Below are positions 1-59,253 of a stretch of DNA of 64,000 bases, piece after piece. Source of the DNA: Enterococcus malodoratus ATCC 43197 (GTDB lineage Bacteria > Bacillota > Bacilli > Lactobacillales > Enterococcaceae); assembly GCF_000407185.1 (NCBI RefSeq), contig NZ_KE136481.1:575136-639135 (forward strand). Direction: 5' to 3'. A program made the translations under genes and the position numbers. The notes beneath the pieces were generated by a model, which searched no databases, was not told the DNA's origin, and saw only the letters and a program-made list of their open reading frames with translations. The stretch's first letter is position 1; each line of letters begins with the position of its first letter.

Positions 1-932
1 TATTTTTGTGCTGAGAACGCGGCAATTGCCCCGTCACCAGTAGCTGTAACGACCTGACGCAGCACTTTTGGCCGCATATCTCCTGCCGCAAAAACACCGG
101 GAATTTGCGTGCACATCGCTTCATCAGTAATTATATAGCCGTAATCATTCAATGGAATTTTTCCTTGGTAAAGTTGCGTACTCGGTACATTGCCGATAAA
201 GACAAAGATCCCAAATAGCCCATCGTCTTCATCCGCTTCAAAACGGGTTAATTCATCTGTCTCTGTATTACGGATAGTCATCGCCTCTACCATGCCGTCG
301 CCTTCGATACTTTCCACGACTGAATCAAAAATATACTCGATCTTGTCATTGGCTTTCGCTTGCTCAACCGCAATCGCATCAGCGGTCAGATCGCTCAAGT
401 TTTGAATGATCGTTACTTTACGTGCAAAGGTCGTAATGAACATCGCTTCCTCGACCGCTGAATTTCCGCCGCCGATTACAAATACTTCCATATCTTCAAA
501 AAAGGCACCGTCGCATGTCGCACAATAAGAAACACCTTTTCCTGCCAGCTCACGTTCCCCAGTACAACCGATCTCTCTTGGAAATGCACCATTGGCACAA
601 ATCACCGCATGGGATTCGAAAACGCTACCATCTTTACACGTTATTTTTTTGACCGTTCCTTCTAATTCCAAATCGGTAACTTCTTTACGTAATTGAATCT
701 CCGCACCAAACTGCTGGGCCTGATCCGCCATTCGTTTGATCAATTCCGGACCAGAGGTTTCTTCTTCGCTCATCTTGATCGATCCTGGAAAATTAGCGAT
801 TTCATGTGTGGAAACAATTTGTCCGCCTAATTTTGTTTTTTCTAAGAGCAACACCTTCAACCGTGCTCTTGCATTGTATAGAGCTGCCGTTAAGCCGGCT
901 GGCCCGCCGCCGATAATAATCACATCGTACAT
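1..932 (-). CDS. trxB: Thioredoxin reductase of the glycine reductase operon (3' end cut by window edge)
   Basis: An FAD- and NADPH-dependent reductase that keeps the thiol chain feeding glycine reductase reduced. The ATG at 930-932 follows a GGGAGGAG ribosome site. The protein opens MYDVIIIGGGPAGL, the FAD-binding motif, and carries the redox pair CATC in SYCATCDG at about residue 140. A second GGGNSAVEEA dinucleotide motif follows, and the FAD-contacting AAGD lies near the end. About 310 codons are present, close to full length for the family (roughly 305-320), so only the last few residues or the stop are missing. It is the last visible gene of the grd operon, 84 bp after grdB. In Clostridium grd operons a dedicated thioredoxin reductase (GrdT) is co-transcribed, and that is the likely role here. 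It could also serve general thioredoxin recycling. Confidence 0.9.
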   Translation of the reverse strand, partial: MYDVIIIGGGPAGLTAALYNARARLKVLLLEKTKLGGQIVSTHEIANFPGSIKMSEEETSGPELIKRMADQAQQFGAEIQLRKEVTDLELEGTVKKITCKDGSVFESHAVICANGAFPREIGCTGERELAGKGVSYCATCDGAFFEDMEVFVIGGGNSAVEEAMFITTFARKVTIIQNLSDLTADAIAVEQAKANDKIEYIFDSVVESIEGDGMVEAMTIRNTETDELTRFEADEDDGLFGIFVFIGNVPSTQLYQGKIPLNDYGYIITDEAMCTQIPGVFAAGDMRPKVLRQVVTATGDGAIAAFSAQK

Positions 933-980
933 ATCCTTAAGCTCCTCCCATAAATAAGAAAATACTTTTTTCCGTTCTAA

Positions 981-1010
981 GTTGCCTGAATGAACACTCA
1001 CTCAGGCAAC
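981..1010 (-). other. Intergenic hairpin between grdB and trxB
   Basis: The 9-bp arms GTTGCCTGA (981-989) and TCAGGCAAC (1002-1010) are perfect inverted repeats around a 12-nt loop. No T-run follows on the minus strand, so it is not a typical terminator. An mRNA processing or stability element that sets grdB versus trxB levels is possible; this is inference. Confidence 0.5.
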
Positions 1011-1016
1011 CATCAA

Positions 1017-2318
1017 TTATTCAAATACGGTTTGTTCGTCCACTGGAGTCGTCATTGCCTTCAACGCATTTTCAACAATCCCGCGACGAAGTTTTTTCTC
1101 TTCCTTCAAGCTTAGGTTTGGATTTCCTAGTGGATGAGGAATCGCAATAGCTGGGACGATTCGATTGGCTCCAACTGTTTGCGAAATTGGAACTACTGTA
1201 CAGATATGAACTACAGGTAGACCGGTTTTCTCAATTTCTTTTACCATCGTTGCACCGCAACGAGTACAGGTTCCTCAGGTGGATGTCAAAATGACAGCAT
1301 CGACACCATCTGCTAGTAATTTTTGAGCGATTTCGGCCGCGTATTTCTTGGCATTCGCAACAGCCGTTCCATTTCCGACTGTTGTGTAGAAATAATTGTG
1401 CAGGCTGCCGATCAGCCCTTCTTGTTCCATCTCTCTCACTATATCTAATGGCAATACTCGGTTTGGATCTTGGTTTGCATAAACAGGGTCATACCCACCG
1501 TGAGCCGTTTCATAAGAATCCGCAGACAAAGTATCAATATTCTCGATTGAATACGTTCCATACTTTGAAGCACTGCTGGATTCGATACGATCTGGATTGC
1601 CTTTAGGAACAATTCCACCAGAAGTCACAAGCGCAATTCTCGCTTTAGATAGATCACTTATCGCTGTGGCTGGCGCGACGTTATCAAATTCAGGCATAGG
1701 AAATTCGGTCGTAAATTCTTGGTCATTCACTTTCTTAACCAGCATCTCCACGGCTCGTGCTGAACCGCGTTTTTCATCCTGAAAATTTTTCCGATAACGA
1801 ACAAAGTAGTTATCTGCTTCTGGTGAAACCTGTTCCTTTCTCAACAATTTCAACGCGAGATTTGCAATCACAGGCACTGCTTTTCTCATACCTGCCGCGC
1901 TATTTCTAGTCGGCACGATATAGGCACCCTTTTTGTACATTTCTACTCCAGGGTTTTCTTCGTACATCCCGGTCACAGCCGGAATGCCAAGCTCAGTCAT
2001 GACCGCTTGAGCTACTTCGCCACAAGCGATTCCATAACGGCCGGCATTAAACGCGGGGCCTGCAACAACAATATCTGGTTCAAATTGTTTGATACGATCT
2101 AATACATCCTTTTTGGCACTATCCAAGTTCTCATTAAAGAAACTATCGCCGCACACAACGGTGCCGATGATTTCTGCTTCATCGCCAAATGAATTCATGT
2201 AAGCAAGACCTGGTCCTACTACTTTGGCTTCTGAAAATGGTTGGATATCCGCCTTTTCTTCACCACCGATTCCAGCATAAAACTGGTTGATGTAGTGAAC
2301 AACTTTAAACTTAGTCAT
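1017..2318 (-). CDS. grdB: Glycine reductase component B, selenoprotein subunit GrdB
   Basis: The substrate-specific gamma subunit of glycine reductase. It binds glycine and, through its selenocysteine, yields a Se-carboxymethyl intermediate that is passed to GrdA. The ATG at 2316-2318 starts a 433-codon frame interrupted only by a TGA at 1275-1277 (codon 348). It sits in the context LTST-U-GTCTRCG, the known GrdB selenocysteine site, so the gene is intact rather than split. After the UGA the frame runs 85 more codons to 1017. Clostridial GrdB is about 436 residues with Sec near 350. A 7-bp hairpin lies 11 nt after the UGA. The gene follows grdA after 18 bp. Translation as full length requires selA, selB, selC and selD elsewhere in the genome; none is in this window. 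Confidence 0.95.
1247..1263 (-). promoter_or_regulatory. Candidate bacterial SECIS hairpin in grdB
   Basis: On the minus strand TCGTTGC pairs perfectly with GCAACGA around a GGT loop. The stem begins 11 nt downstream of the UGA at 1275-1277. A short stem with a G/U-containing apical loop just after the UGA is the known form of bacterial SelB-binding SECIS elements. No equally clear hairpin is seen after the grdA UGA. Confidence 0.6.
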
Positions 2319-2336
2319 AAGACGCTCCTTTACTAA

Positions 2337-2810
2337 TTAATATTTGGAGTATTGATTCCTCATTTCCGACACCTCTTCAATGATGTCATCAACATCTAAA
2401 ACCATTTCCATCATGCCGATTTGCTCTTCAAAAACATCTGGGTCGACAACTTCTTTAAATTCTGGCTCTACAGCGTGATATACAGCTAAACCTAGCTGTT
2501 CATTGGTTAATGGACCGGCATACGTAGGGTCTCCGTTCGTTACAGTTTCAGCAGCTAAACCAGCTGCTTCTCCTTCGGCAGCACCGATCAGAACAATAAC
2601 ATTCTCTGCTCCGAAGTTTTCTGCTGCTTCTTTTACTCTACGTTGATTTTCTAAGTCCATTGCCCCAGCGGCCGTTCAGACGAAACATTCTGTGGATGAG
2701 AATATTACTTCTGAACCAGTACCCTCGATACAAGCTTCAATTGCTTGTCCTGGAATACCGTCACGGTCGCCGATCACTAAGACTTTTTTATTTTTAAAAT
2801 CTAAAGTCAT
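2337..2810 (-). CDS. grdA: Glycine reductase protein A, selenoprotein GrdA
   Basis: The small selenoprotein shared by glycine, sarcosine and betaine reductases. It takes the Se-carboxymethyl group from component B and hands it to component C as an acyl thioester. The ATG at 2808-2810 opens [18 protein letters not shown]. An in-frame TGA at 2676-2678 is codon 45, in the context [16 protein letters not shown], matching the GrdA motif [13 protein letters not shown]. The full product is 157 residues, like clostridial GrdA (about 158). Conventional gene calling would start at the ATG at 2658-2660, after the Sec codon, and lose the active site. It lies 23 bp after grdE and 18 bp before grdB. Confidence 0.95.
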
Positions 2811-2833
2811 TAGTATTTCCTCCCTATTTAATT

Positions 2834-4120
2834 TTAAACGCCTTTTGCAGACATTTTGTTAAAACCTAGTTCATTGGTTGCACCGGTAATTGCCTGGATT
2901 TCAACTTCAATCGTGCCATCGTCTTTCAAGCTGCCATCAAAGCCGCCTGCGATCACATCGAAATAATCTAATTGTCCGATCAAGCGATCCATTTTTGGTA
3001 ATCGGATCGTTTCATTGGCATTTCCGCCAGTTACTACAGCAGTTGCTAATTTATCCGCATCCGCCAACGACTGACTAGCCCCGTCTCTTCCAGCATATTC
3101 ATCTGTTACAATCACTGTTTTGATGCCTTTTTCTTCGACCTTCTTACAGTTCATGATCAAGTCCGTATCCGGATTTCCGAATCCTTCTTGAGAAATGATC
3201 ACTCCATCTAAGCCTAAATACTCAGTTAATTTCGCAACAAAGTCACTTGAACGATGTTTGTCTTTCAAATAAACCGTTTCGTTCGTAACAATCACACCTA
3301 AGAAATTGATTTCTTTGCCATGTTGCTTGTACAAGTCTGCGATTACCGGATTATTCAAATGGTGATAAGTCGTATTCTTATCACAGGCAGACACACAGTT
3401 TCCGCTGATGATTGCCCCATCCATCACCTCTGTTGGGTACAATATCGTTGGCACAATGTGCTTTGCATCTGTTCCATACACATACGTGTCATGAAGCAGC
3501 CCTTGTGTTTGGAGCATGTAGACATACCCTATTTTAGGCAGATCCGGATATTGCTGAATCTGTTGTAAAAGCGGCAGTGTCTCAAATGTTTCAATCTGAT
3601 CCGGCACAACCGCTTCCCCAAATTTGCCGATATAATCAGCCGTTTTTAAGCCCGCAAAGCGAGCCGCTTCTTCGTAAAGATGCGGATCAAGTCCTTCTTG
3701 CGGTTTTAAAACTAAACAGATTTCCAGCAATTGTGAAAATGGGGTCAGTTCAGAACCCGGACCCTGCATATCCACAATACCTTCTTGAAATCCGACAATT
3801 TTTCCAACCGTCATGACGGCACAGCCCTTCAATACATGCGTCCGGCCGCTGCCAACAATATCCACTTTATTGATTACCCCGGGAAAAATACCTGTTGTTG
3901 AATCAACTTTACACCTTGGTTCGATTACATCTTTGACTGGTGTAATGCGAACGCTATCCCCCGGTTTGGCGATTTCGATCACGCAATCTGCCAGACGATC
4001 ATCGGTTAAAACTAATTCTTTGATTTTCGCTGGATCAAGATAAAGCGTGCCCCCCTCAATCTTTTCTTCTTCGCCTAAGACAACTTCCTTGATTTCGATG
4101 TTTCCAATTTCGAGTTTCAT
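2834..4120 (-). CDS. grdE: Glycine reductase component B, pyruvoyl proprotein GrdE
   Basis: A proprotein that self-cleaves into the alpha and beta subunits of component B. The pyruvoyl group formed at the new N terminus binds the amino group of glycine as a Schiff base. The 428-residue product carries [16 protein letters not shown], with the expected Asn241-Cys242 cleavage point; Cys242 is the residue used in clostridial GrdE. Together with GrdB it gives glycine rather than betaine specificity, because betaine reductase uses GrdH/GrdI with a different fold of the operon. It lies 40 bp after grdX. Length and motif position match the family, so I see no sign of degradation. Confidence 0.93.
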
Positions 4121-4160
4121 TTATTCACCTCAGTTCTGATTGGTTGCAAATCGTTGAACG

Positions 4161-4547
4161 CTACCTCAGCACCTCCATTCTGTCCAACGTGCTTTGCGCG
4201 ATATAAAAATCTACGAAGGCAAAATCCTTCAACACCGCTAAGGACCAATTAGGGCGTTGTTTATTTTTGATAAATTTTTCGTAGACCGCTATCGCTGATT
4301 CAATATATTCTAAACTCTCAATATCGATGTATTGAGAAGTGGTCTCTGTGACAAAAATTGTTTTGTAATAGGTTTCATTTGGTTTGATGCTGCCGCTTAA
4401 AGGATGAGAGAGCAAAACAACATGCTTTTCGATAATTTGCTGCTTTACCTCAACCAGCACTTCACCGTAAGAGCCGTCAATAAAGCTGAGAAGACTGGCT
4501 TGATTGATCTTTTCTTTAACCATTGGATTGTTTGTTATAATAATCAT
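4161..4547 (-). CDS. grdX: GrdX family protein, first gene of the glycine reductase operon
   Basis: A 128-residue protein of unknown biochemical role that is typically the first gene of clostridial glycine reductase operons. The N terminus IIITNNPMVKEK is characteristic of GrdX. There is no signal peptide, membrane segment or obvious catalytic motif. The gene sits directly downstream of the glycine riboswitch and terminator (4611-4830), with about 63 bp to its ATG. Its position and sequence support the name; the function is not established. Confidence 0.85.
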   Translation of the reverse strand: MIIITNNPMVKEKINQASLLSFIDGSYGEVLVEVKQQIIEKHVVLLSHPLSGSIKPNETYYKTIFVTETTSQYIDIESLEYIESAIAVYEKFIKNKQRPNWSLAVLKDFAFVDFYIAQSTLDRMEVLR

Positions 4548-4610
4548 CTGCTCACCGCCTGTATTGTGTTTTATTTCACATGGCGTTTATCAATTAAACC
4601 TCTGATTCAC

Positions 4611-4648
4611 AAAAAAGAGGACAACAGCACACTGTGCCGCTGTCCTCT
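4611..4648 (-). terminator. Riboswitch-controlled intrinsic terminator ahead of grdX
   Basis: On the minus strand AGAGGACAGCGGCAC pairs with a GTGCTGTTGTCCTCT arm and is followed by TTTTTT (4611-4616). The 5' arm overlaps the 3' side of the second glycine aptamer (AGAGGACAG). Glycine binding would therefore compete with terminator formation, the known arrangement for glycine ON switches. Confidence 0.85.
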
Positions 4649-4826
4649 GTCACTAGCCTGAAAGATTCGCTCTATTTCTAGAGTTTGCTTCTTCGGCGCA
4701 TTTCTGCTCTTCAGAGTTCAATCCAATTACGGTCCATTTACCTGAGATGTTCACTGTAAAATCAGCATGTCTCACAGCTTATACCTTCGGTGGCAGATTC
4801 ATCTGCACTCTCCCGCAATCTTCACT
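4641..4826 (-). ncRNA. Tandem glycine riboswitch controlling the grd operon
   Basis: Two consecutive glycine aptamers can be read on the minus strand. The first has GCGGGAGAGTGCAGAT, GCCACCGAAGGTATAAGC and ATCTCAGGTAAATGGACCG. The second has GAAGAGCAGAAATGCG, CGCCGAAGAAGCAAAC, then TTTCAGGCTAGTGACAGAGGA. The GCCGAAG-type core, the CUCAGG/UCAGG segment and the closing GGAC/GGACAG are hallmarks of this family. A short linker joins the aptamers near 4733. The leader precedes grdX, so glycine should raise transcription of the genes that consume it. Boundaries are approximate. Confidence 0.9.
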
Positions 4827-4831
4827 TTATT

Positions 4832-4845
4832 TGAAAACGCTTTCT
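4832..4845 (-). promoter_or_regulatory. Candidate CcpA cre box in the grd leader start
   Basis: Minus-strand AGAAAGCGTTTTCA differs from the TGAAANCGNTTTCA-type consensus at one conserved position. It begins 8 nt after the -10 element at 4854-4859, so CcpA bound there would block early transcription of the grd operon. Confidence 0.6.
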
Positions 4846-4853
4846 ACAAATTG

Positions 4854-4882
4854 ATAGTAACAAGTTCGCTTGAAAAATACAA
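4854..4882 (-). promoter_or_regulatory. Sigma-A promoter of the grd operon
   Basis: Minus-strand TTGTAT (4877-4882), a 17-nt spacer and TACTAT (4854-4859). It lies about 25 bp upstream of the riboswitch, which is where the leader transcript should begin. Upstream, from 4883 to 5092, I see no other element. Confidence 0.6.
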
Positions 4883-5092
4883 CCCGATTTTCTTCTTATT
4901 TTCGATAAAATGGGGTAAAGCTTTTTGGTTCGACAACAGAAACAATTAAATTCGAACTGTTATTTTTAAATTATTGATAGATTTCGGGTAAACAACTCAT
5001 GGCAAAGTAAATAGACCGGACAATTCCTCCGCTTCTGTTCTCCTCAAAATTTACCTAACTCGTTATTTTCCTCAATAGATTCCTAGTAATAA

Positions 5093-5623
5093 TTATTGAT
5101 CAGTGTTAACTTTCACTACCATTACTATCTTTGCAGGATCGACGGCTTCATCAAAATAAATATCTTCAAGCGTTCCACCTTCTGGCATAACCGCCAATAC
5201 TAGTGATAGTGTCTGTTCCTCATTTATCTCATTAGGATCTATCCCCGCAGGTAATTCAAATCTTTGTTCTATAATACCTGACTGGATGATTCTCTCTTCT
5301 ACCGTTATTTCACGAAGAAGTTCTGCCGAATTCGCTTCGGAGTCCGTTATTTGCGAGGTTGATCGCTCTGATTCTGTTCCGGTATCGGGCAATGACGGCT
5401 CTTTTGATTTATCAAATATTGGTGTTACCGTTCTTTCGACAAATTTTGCGCTGACAACATCTTGAAATAAGCCAACACCGTCCTTTTCGAATAGGTTGAT
5501 CGCCGAGAGCTTTTCTAACGAGGTTTTGATTTCCTCAGGCGATCTATTCGGGTCAGCATTCTTCATGCGCCAACGATGCTTCTTATCAGCACTATTTTTA
5601 AAAGTTGCGGCGAGACTCAACAT
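5093..5623 (-). CDS. DUF2922-containing protein
   Basis: A 176-residue protein of unknown function. The ATG at 5621-5623 is chosen because GGAGGG sits 6 nt before it; an ATG 18 nt upstream has a poorer site. Residues 1-70 match the DUF2922 pattern: an LSLAATFKNSADKKHRW opening, a PEEIKTSLEKLSAINLF stretch, and a VERTVTPIFD end. A second segment (about 105-176) contains PAGIDPNEINEEQTLSL and ends in a beta-rich MVVKVNTDQ. It resembles a second, divergent copy of a similar small fold. No signal peptide or membrane segment is seen. It follows the 5664-6047 gene by 40 bp and probably shares its promoter. Function unknown. Confidence 0.6.
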   Translation of the reverse strand: MLSLAATFKNSADKKHRWRMKNADPNRSPEEIKTSLEKLSAINLFEKDGVGLFQDVVSAKFVERTVTPIFDKSKEPSLPDTGTESERSTSQITDSEANSAELLREITVEERIIQSGIIEQRFELPAGIDPNEINEEQTLSLVLAVMPEGGTLEDIYFDEAVDPAKIVMVVKVNTDQ

Positions 5624-59168: not shown

Positions 59169-59253
59169 ACAAAAAGAGCGCAAAACTCCTAAGGTCGTTC
59201 TTCTCACCCCTTGAAGAACACGATCCTTGAAGCTTACGCCCAACCTTTTTTGT
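59169..59253 (-). ncRNA. Structured leader RNA of the ntp operon, candidate Na+ riboswitch
   Basis: On the minus strand ACAAAAA (59247-59253) pairs with TTTTTGT (59169-59175) to close a domain. Inside, GGGCG can pair with CGCTC. A long arm AAGG-A-TCG-TG-TTCTTC pairs with GAAGAACGACCTT around AAGGGGTGA, with the single A and TG as bulges. Unpaired GTAAGCTTC and AGGAGTTTT remain in the junction. It ends 6 nt ahead of the ribosome site region of ntpF. Na+-sensing riboswitches (the former DUF1646 motif) are known to precede V-ATPase and Na+ transport genes; assignment to that class is from memory and needs a model search. Confidence 0.55.

Follow-up and report, generated by a model that had tools for sequence, protein, structure and literature searches.

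The stretch of DNA analysed here (the window) comprises 64,000 nucleotides of the genome of Enterococcus malodoratus ATCC 43197 (assembly GCF_000407185.1, contig NZ_KE136481.1, positions 575,136 to 639,135), and its beginning encodes components of a predicted selenocysteine (Sec)-dependent glycine reductase. In the direction of transcription, the operon consists of a glycine riboswitch followed by grdX-grdE-grdA-grdB-trxB-trxA-grdC-grdD, of which the last three genes, together with the rest of trxB, lie just beyond the window on the same contig (C1). The assembly amounts to 4.62 Mb in five contigs and is 99.35% complete. The sequences themselves, their motifs and RNA elements, and the order and location of the genes were established directly, and open reading frames were listed both with TGA as a stop and with TGA as Sec. 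The features of the operon within the window, all on the minus strand, are listed below; SECIS denotes a Sec insertion sequence, and bit scores are given with the cut-offs of the models.

4643..4829, minus: glycine riboswitch, probably tandem, 5' of grdX; aptamer 1 at 4825-4720, aptamer 2 extending to 4643
4616..4648, minus: intrinsic-terminator hairpin, likely the expression platform; 15 pairs, then a T run
4161..4547, minus: grdX, 128 amino acids; NCBIfam NF038093 (GrdX) 128.8 bits, cut-off 40
2834..4120, minus: grdE, proprotein of component B; PF09338 673.1 bits; Asn241-Cys242
2337..2810, minus: grdA, selenoprotein A, 157 amino acids; matches to PF04723 and NF040748 (262 bits, cut-off 130) span the TGA; Sec45 in CxxU
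2676..2678, minus: TGA of grdA (Sec45), ECFV-U-TAAGAMD, the only in-frame TGA of the gene
1017..2318, minus: grdB, selenoprotein B, 433 amino acids; glycine-type model TIGR01917 680.8 bits, cut-off 602.2, match spanning the TGA; Sec348 in UxxC
1275..1277, minus: TGA of grdB (Sec348), LTST-U-GTCTRCG, the only in-frame TGA of the gene
1237..1274, minus: SECIS_4 (RF01990), 65.3 bits, gathering threshold 38, E 2.5e-13; starts at the base 3' of the grdB TGA
3..1001, minus: trxB-like thioredoxin reductase gene, running beyond the window start; the partial protein scores below whole-protein cut-offs

The original prediction, made from the sequence alone, had placed TGA codons in grdB and grdA beside a grdE with Asn241-Cys242; its coordinates proved exact, both frames are otherwise open, and grdE is as described. 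It had also named trxA, grdC and grdD as genes to look for, and all three were found next to the window on C1, above their cut-offs. Its interpretation, that the strain can use Stickland-type glycine reduction for ATP, is supported in part, and it had missed the glycine riboswitch, grdX and the location of the Sec genes on a different, plasmid-like replicon.

The grd operon and its leader

In the adjoining part of C1, the grdC/grdD models NF040746 (786.9 bits, curated cut-off 450) and NF040747 (555.9 bits, curated cut-off 350) and the TrxA model (154.9 bits, cut-off 140) were all exceeded, while trxB was scored as a partial protein alone. A Pfam search with the GrdX protein gave zero matches, and a search of solved structures with the GrdB sequence gave none. 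Among the loci fetched for comparison, grdX is the first gene of many grd operons. Two acetate kinase (ackA) genes score over the cut-off in the genome, so that, with grdC and grdD present, a route from glycine through acetyl phosphate to ATP is encoded, as outlined in a published summary of the pathway (PMC13188914). Taken as a whole, the best explanation of the locus is very probably a complete, chromosomal, clostridial-type glycine reductase operon with a glycine-controlled leader.

The leader combines a riboswitch with a terminator. Aptamer 1 matches RF00504 with 57.1 bits (gathering threshold 32), and the 15-pair terminator hairpin has as its 5' arm the strand (CAGAG) that closes aptamer 2 on its 3' side. 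From this overlap, glycine is predicted to close aptamer 2 and so to disrupt the terminator, switching the operon on. In Clostridioides difficile, grd transcription is described as rising with glycine, and an ON switch has been suggested (PMC11477304). Terminator-like sites in the region number five, against a mean of 4.1 (standard deviation 2.4) in shuffled sequence, and the 15-pair stem alone stands out; the case for the terminator therefore rests on the length, place and conservation of this hairpin. By eye, a hairpin starting in the same CAGAG/CAGGG element was counted in 12 of 18 relatives, and a two-sided compensatory change was seen in one of them (L046), the leader alignment comprising seven leaders. 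The six relatives outside this count are five Vagococcus loci (L055-L059) and L051, where the alignment shows a comparable stem that lacks a strong T run. Of nine relatives searched, four have two RF00504 aptamers over the gathering threshold, two have one and three have none.

Two results speak against parts of this description of the leader. The tandem model RF03166 covers 4829-4643 with 65.5 bits (E 1.9e-12), below its gathering threshold of 110, and the second aptamer is sub-threshold in the window. Furthermore, a promoter scan of positions 900-5200 returned four sigma-70-like sites, none on the strand of the operon, and for this reason no promoter is proposed.

Protein B of clostridia, formed by GrdE and GrdB, binds glycine via a carbonyl group generated by the cleavage of GrdE. 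The Sec of clostridial GrdA takes over the carboxymethyl group, GrdC and GrdD release acetyl phosphate from which acetate kinase makes ATP, and TrxB and TrxA re-reduce GrdA. For the E. malodoratus system, expression, Sec insertion and enzyme activity are inferred, as are the direction in which the switch works and the dependence on a plasmid. Glycine would bind the leader riboswitch, and the closed aptamer 2 would take bases of the terminator 5' arm, allowing transcription into grdX-E-A-B-trxB-trxA-grdC-D. SelB with Sec-tRNA would then read the UGA codons of grdA and grdB as Sec, guided in grdB by the SECIS_4 element. The substrate would pass from protein B to the Sec of GrdA and on to GrdC/GrdD, acetate kinase would make ATP from the acetyl phosphate, and TrxB/TrxA would recycle GrdA. 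The selA, selB, selD and selC genes that this requires would be supplied by a RepA_N megaplasmid-like replicon, near a D-proline reductase operon, and the chromosomal pathway would depend on it.

Enterococci ferment sugars, which counts in favour of an operon that serves mainly to detoxify glycine or to dispose of reducing power, with little gain of ATP. A glycine-controlled leader would also suit such a role, as it is described at glycine cleavage operons that detoxify glycine (PMC11477304), but the intact grdC, grdD and two ackA genes make the step from acetyl phosphate to ATP available, and the presence of three Sec-dependent reductases in one genome fits an energy role. Detoxification or redox balance as the main function thus keeps a limited share of the probability, and a gain of ATP from glycine appears the likelier outcome.

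It is less probable still that the operon reduces sarcosine, or several N-methylglycines, instead of mainly glycine. The raw score of GrdB is slightly higher on the sarcosine GrdF model (688.8 bits) than on the glycine model, and GrdE scores 659.7 bits on the sarcosine-specific GrdG model; however, both remain below the respective cut-offs of 800 and 780, GrdB also remains below the betaine cut-off (549.6 against 775), the glycine-type cut-off is exceeded, and a glycine riboswitch heads the operon. Assignment to glycine over sarcosine would therefore follow from family cut-offs and the riboswitch, and the raw scores are a point on the other side.

Selenocysteine genes on a probable second replicon

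As the original prediction had required, the genome holds the Sec machinery. Each gene of the set scores over its cut-off exactly once in the genome, in every case on the 1,188,036-bp contig C2, and the other contigs, C1 included, are below the cut-offs:

C2:6-1343: selA, over cut-off
C2:11836-11928: tRNA-Sec (selC), over cut-off
C2:1182920-1183831: selD, over cut-off
C2:1184960-1186822: selB, over cut-off

The sole RepA_N match of the genome is also on C2, and its RepA is 79-84% identical to proteins in six plasmid records, five from E. raffinosus and one from E. gilvus, all of which carry selB. Of the 16-kb region that spans the sel and D-proline reductase (prd) genes, 97% is matched by the five E. 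raffinosus plasmids, with a nucleotide identity of about 82%, and 52% by the E. gilvus plasmid. The ends of C2 fall between a cysteine-desulfurase-like gene and selA, and, when joined, they align to E. raffinosus pCX012922 in a single piece (505 nucleotides, 81.4% identity, nine gap openings). By homology, C2 looks like a circular RepA_N megaplasmid. The prd and sel genes lie within about 30 kb of the RepA_N gene (C2 about 1158-1188 kb and 1-20 kb).

Alternatively, C2 could belong to the chromosome, or be a chromid that has become fixed in the lineage, with no real plasmid dependence. The assembly is a draft of five contigs, and selB is found in 19 of 20 genomes of the genus, meaning that the element is rarely absent; nevertheless, RepA_N occurs on C2 alone, the same RepA and sel genes are present in plasmid records from relatives, of which two were seen to be circular, and the ends of C2 align as one piece with an E. 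raffinosus plasmid. This alternative is improbable, and we prefer to read C2 as a plasmid-like replicon. It counts against that preference that the separation of C2 would follow from one draft assembly together with homology. For the Sec set itself, the search for tRNA-Sec scored 150 of 300 candidates.

C2 carries two further Sec-dependent reductase systems. A series trxB-trxA-grdA-grdC-grdD-component B-grdH with a transporter gene (L021:14266 to L022:7774) includes a GrdH that scores 803.3 bits against the betaine reductase cut-off of 775, and its grdH has a SECIS_4 element of its own (46 bits, threshold 38); in the homologous E. gilvus series, the transporter is annotated as a BCCT transporter. 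A gene for trans-4-hydroxyproline dehydratase (1285 bits, cut-off 1100) lies 5' of the betaine series, alongside a likely activase gene. The D-proline reductase operon consists of prdC (one TGA in the matched part), prdA and prdB, the last also with a TGA, and is followed by selD-yedF-DUF3343-like-selB-desulfurase-selA, as named by comparison with the plasmid of a relative. In total, six predicted selenoproteins were seen (two GrdA, GrdB, GrdH, PrdB and PrdC), with no dedicated search for more. Elsewhere on C2, positions 800000-815000 have a low G+C content (0.322) and contain an IS21-type element that is found on Listeria plasmids too.

The glycine-type genes appear to be absent from the plasmids of relatives. 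A megablast search of the first 6 kb of the window against plasmids gave no match, which is weak evidence alone, as relatives may fall under the identity limit of the program; protein searches of the plasmids were therefore made instead. Across the six plasmid records, the highest identity is about 71% for GrdA, with matches in three records, and 37.5% for GrdE, in the same three, the others giving PrdA-like matches alone. By comparison, the glycine-type genes in E. raffinosus drafts (L043, L047) are 93-97% identical to those of the window, indicating that none of the six plasmid records carries them.

The chromosomal grd operon of E. malodoratus probably depends on plasmid-borne UGA recoding. 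Extended to the avium group, reading UGA as Sec may be a megaplasmid trait that acts in trans, such that the grd operon would work only in holders of the megaplasmid and may help to keep it, while the Sec machinery and D-proline reductase would form a cassette that recurs on plasmids of enterococci, Ligilactobacillus salivarius and Terrisporobacter; this wider proposal is one that we lean towards rather than hold firmly. It would be a case, simple and open to testing, in which a plasmid determines how the genetic code of a chromosomal pathway is read. Both the operon and its proteins are familiar from clostridia, and relatives are already named in plasmid records. The operon itself is well supported as a Sec-dependent glycine reductase of ordinary biochemistry, and what is new lies in the host, the context and the probable dependence on a megaplasmid.

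The UGA codons of grdA and grdB

Three lines of evidence (scores of hidden Markov model matches that span the TGA, the SECIS_4 element, and retention of the TGA in relatives) argue that the in-frame TGAs are not chance. Of 320 GrdB loci found in named genomes, the best 80 were fetched, and every one of these 80 has TGA as its Sec codon, with no other stop inside the match. Likewise, all grdA matches contain exactly one in-frame TGA, both in the search of the genus (19/19) and in that of the order (33/33).

Constraint on the nucleotide sequence around the codons was assessed at fourfold-degenerate sites. Over the 13 codons after the grdB TGA, these sites are 76.5% identical to those of relatives, compared with 48% before it, a level reached by 9 of 418 sliding windows. 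Evidence on the other side comes from grdA: near its TGA the values are 81.2% and 61.1%, and 16 of 144 windows reach the former, a modest and weaker signal, and an Rfam search at this TGA gave no SECIS match, with a weak predicted hairpin there. The comparison in both genes used 17 of the 18 relatives L042-L059, a gapped one having been dropped, and the relatedness of these rows is the reason why no probability is attached to it.

If the UGAs were ordinary stops, as both frames are without Sec decoding, the genes would be truncated or decaying and their downstream parts non-functional, a reading that the lack of a recognisable SECIS in grdA (by Rfam and by folding) might favour but that is hardly credible given that codon differences after the TGA show protein-level constraint (164 non-synonymous to 539 synonymous in grdB, 189 to 450 in grdA), that the TGA is kept in 80 of 80 GrdB relatives, that SECIS_4 is present and that the genome holds a full Sec set. 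Truncated genes or pseudogenes were accordingly rejected. A wholesale change of the genetic code was rejected as well, since TGA terminates several open reading frames near the operon and on C2, and a tRNA-Sec is present. As for annotation, the expectation that automated pipelines would truncate both proteins at the UGA does not hold for one relative, so that truncation is not the rule: the RefSeq-derived GrdA (155 amino acids) and GrdH (439 amino acids) of E. gilvus pCR1A are annotated through the TGA as selenoproteins.

Distribution, history and related systems

The closest named relatives place the genome in the Enterococcus avium group. Named relatives of GrdB, at identities of up to 95%, come from E. 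avium, E. raffinosus, E. pseudoavium, E. hulanensis, E. devriesei, E. viikkiensis, E. hermanniensis and others, and beyond the enterococci from Vagococcus, Loigolactobacillus rennini, Aerococcus, Facklamia, and then clostridia and their kin. In genome samples, grdA was found in 15 of 20 genomes of the genus to which the window belongs, in 15 of 105 genomes of the family, all belonging to that genus (none of the remaining 85), and in 27 of 395 genomes sampled from the order, representing 12 of 80 genera. By its neighbours, the operon in the genus is of the glycine type in 13 of 20 genomes and betaine-like in six, with one betaine-like operon (G008, L029) of atypical order. The view that glycine reductase is unusual for an enterococcus thus stands outside this genus and fails within it.

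Within the genus, selB occurs in 19 of 20 genomes and prdB exceeds its cut-off in 18; of the 18 genomes holding both, 16 have prdB and selB on one contig, at distances of 6 to 29 kb. Four genomes (G004, G005, G012, G019) have selB without grdA, and three of these, all but G005, have prdB. The selB contig is shared by the betaine-like operon in four of six genomes and by the glycine-type operon in none of 13, a separation that is only suggestive, as these are mostly many-contig drafts. The tally was compiled from coordinates copied from separate grdA, selB, prdB and operon searches, which counts against it.

In a tree of 83 sequences, all 25 Lactobacillales GrdB rows form one group (support 96 in the Shimodaira-Hasegawa-like approximate likelihood-ratio test) among mostly clostridial rows, and the GrdB of Loigolactobacillus rennini is nested inside the Enterococcus-Vagococcus part. 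This topology fits a single entry from clostridia with later exchange, for rows picked by their likeness to the window; the choice of the best 80 of 320 relatives in this way, and a quick method of inference, weaken the argument. Other avium-group genomes have the operon in the same order, and when 12 flanking genes were tested in 18 relatives (L042-L059), nine proved to share one or more of them; both findings fit inheritance within the avium group. A very recent foreign insertion was rejected on account of these flanking genes, the counterpoint being that the G+C content of the operon is slightly higher than that of the rest of the window (0.432 against 0.399). In Loigolactobacillus, Vagococcus and Aerococcus loci (L053, L058, L061, L068, L075), selA, selB or selD matches stand beside grd, unlike the split seen in E. 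malodoratus.

Two published accounts bear on this distribution from the opposite side. In a genome paper on E. durans, grdB, selA and selB are listed (PMC8894896), whereas the family search met grdA in the genus of the window alone. In addition, a 2016 survey reports GrdB in 146 organisms; the string 'enterococc' does not occur in its main text, and its supplement may list enterococci (PMC5029168).

Compared with the clostridial grd operon, as described for example in C. difficile, the operon of the window has the same components, Sec positions and upstream glycine riboswitch (PMC11477304). Its order (grdX-E-A-B-trxB-trxA-C-D) differs from that of many clostridial loci, in which trxB-trxA precede grdE, and from others with grdE-grdB-trxB-trxA-grdA; clostridial GrdB proteins are 62-70% identical to the one encoded here, and its host belongs to the lactic acid bacteria. 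Another enterococcus, E. faecalis, is described as using selenium through an orphan selD, and the surveys in question assign that species no Sec trait (PMC2432076, PMC1794560), in contrast to the full Sec set of the E. malodoratus genome. According to the 2006 survey, no member of the Lactobacillales other than E. faecalis was known at that time to carry selD (PMC1794560).

The split arrangement is known in kind. The Terrisporobacter plasmids pTM1, pTP1 and pTG1 are described as carrying selA, selB, selC and selD with D-proline reductase, while the reductases for glycine, sarcosine and betaine are chromosomal (PMC10564238), and the map of pTG1 shows a prd/sel block that includes tRNA-Sec. The enterococcal case is a new instance, which differs in that Terrisporobacter has a plasmid of 21 kb in Clostridia, whereas E. 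malodoratus has a RepA_N replicon of about 1.19 Mb with betaine reductase also aboard. Five plasmid records of Ligilactobacillus salivarius carry a similar prd-sel block, and the one viewed in full has tRNA-Sec. D-proline reductase with selA, selB, selD and tRNA-Sec may thus be a recurring plasmid cassette in distant Bacillota.

The closest counterparts of C2 are the megaplasmids of E. raffinosus and E. gilvus (pCX012922, pCR1A and others), which share a homologous RepA (six records) and the sel and prd genes. E. gilvus pCR1A holds a betaine reductase operon, and matching grdA and component-B matches are present on two of the five E. raffinosus records. In the sel region, these E. raffinosus megaplasmids differ from C2 in sequence, the nucleotide identity being about 82%. 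A term search of the main texts of two genome papers on E. raffinosus gave no occurrence of seleno, selenium, glycine, betaine, proline or Stickland. A literature search, mainly of titles and abstract openings, found no published description of Sec decoding or glycine reductase for the E. avium group, or of the split arrangement there.

One enterococcal genome thus encodes three Sec-dependent reductases, for glycine, proline and betaine, together with the whole decoding set, which predicts selenium-dependent fermentation of amino acids and betaine in avium-group enterococci. Records of the group include isolates from human urine and faeces. A betaine reductase would release trimethylamine. Further along the window, a Na+ riboswitch aptamer (RF03071) lies at positions 59198-59245 on the minus strand, with 44.9 bits against a threshold of 40.5.

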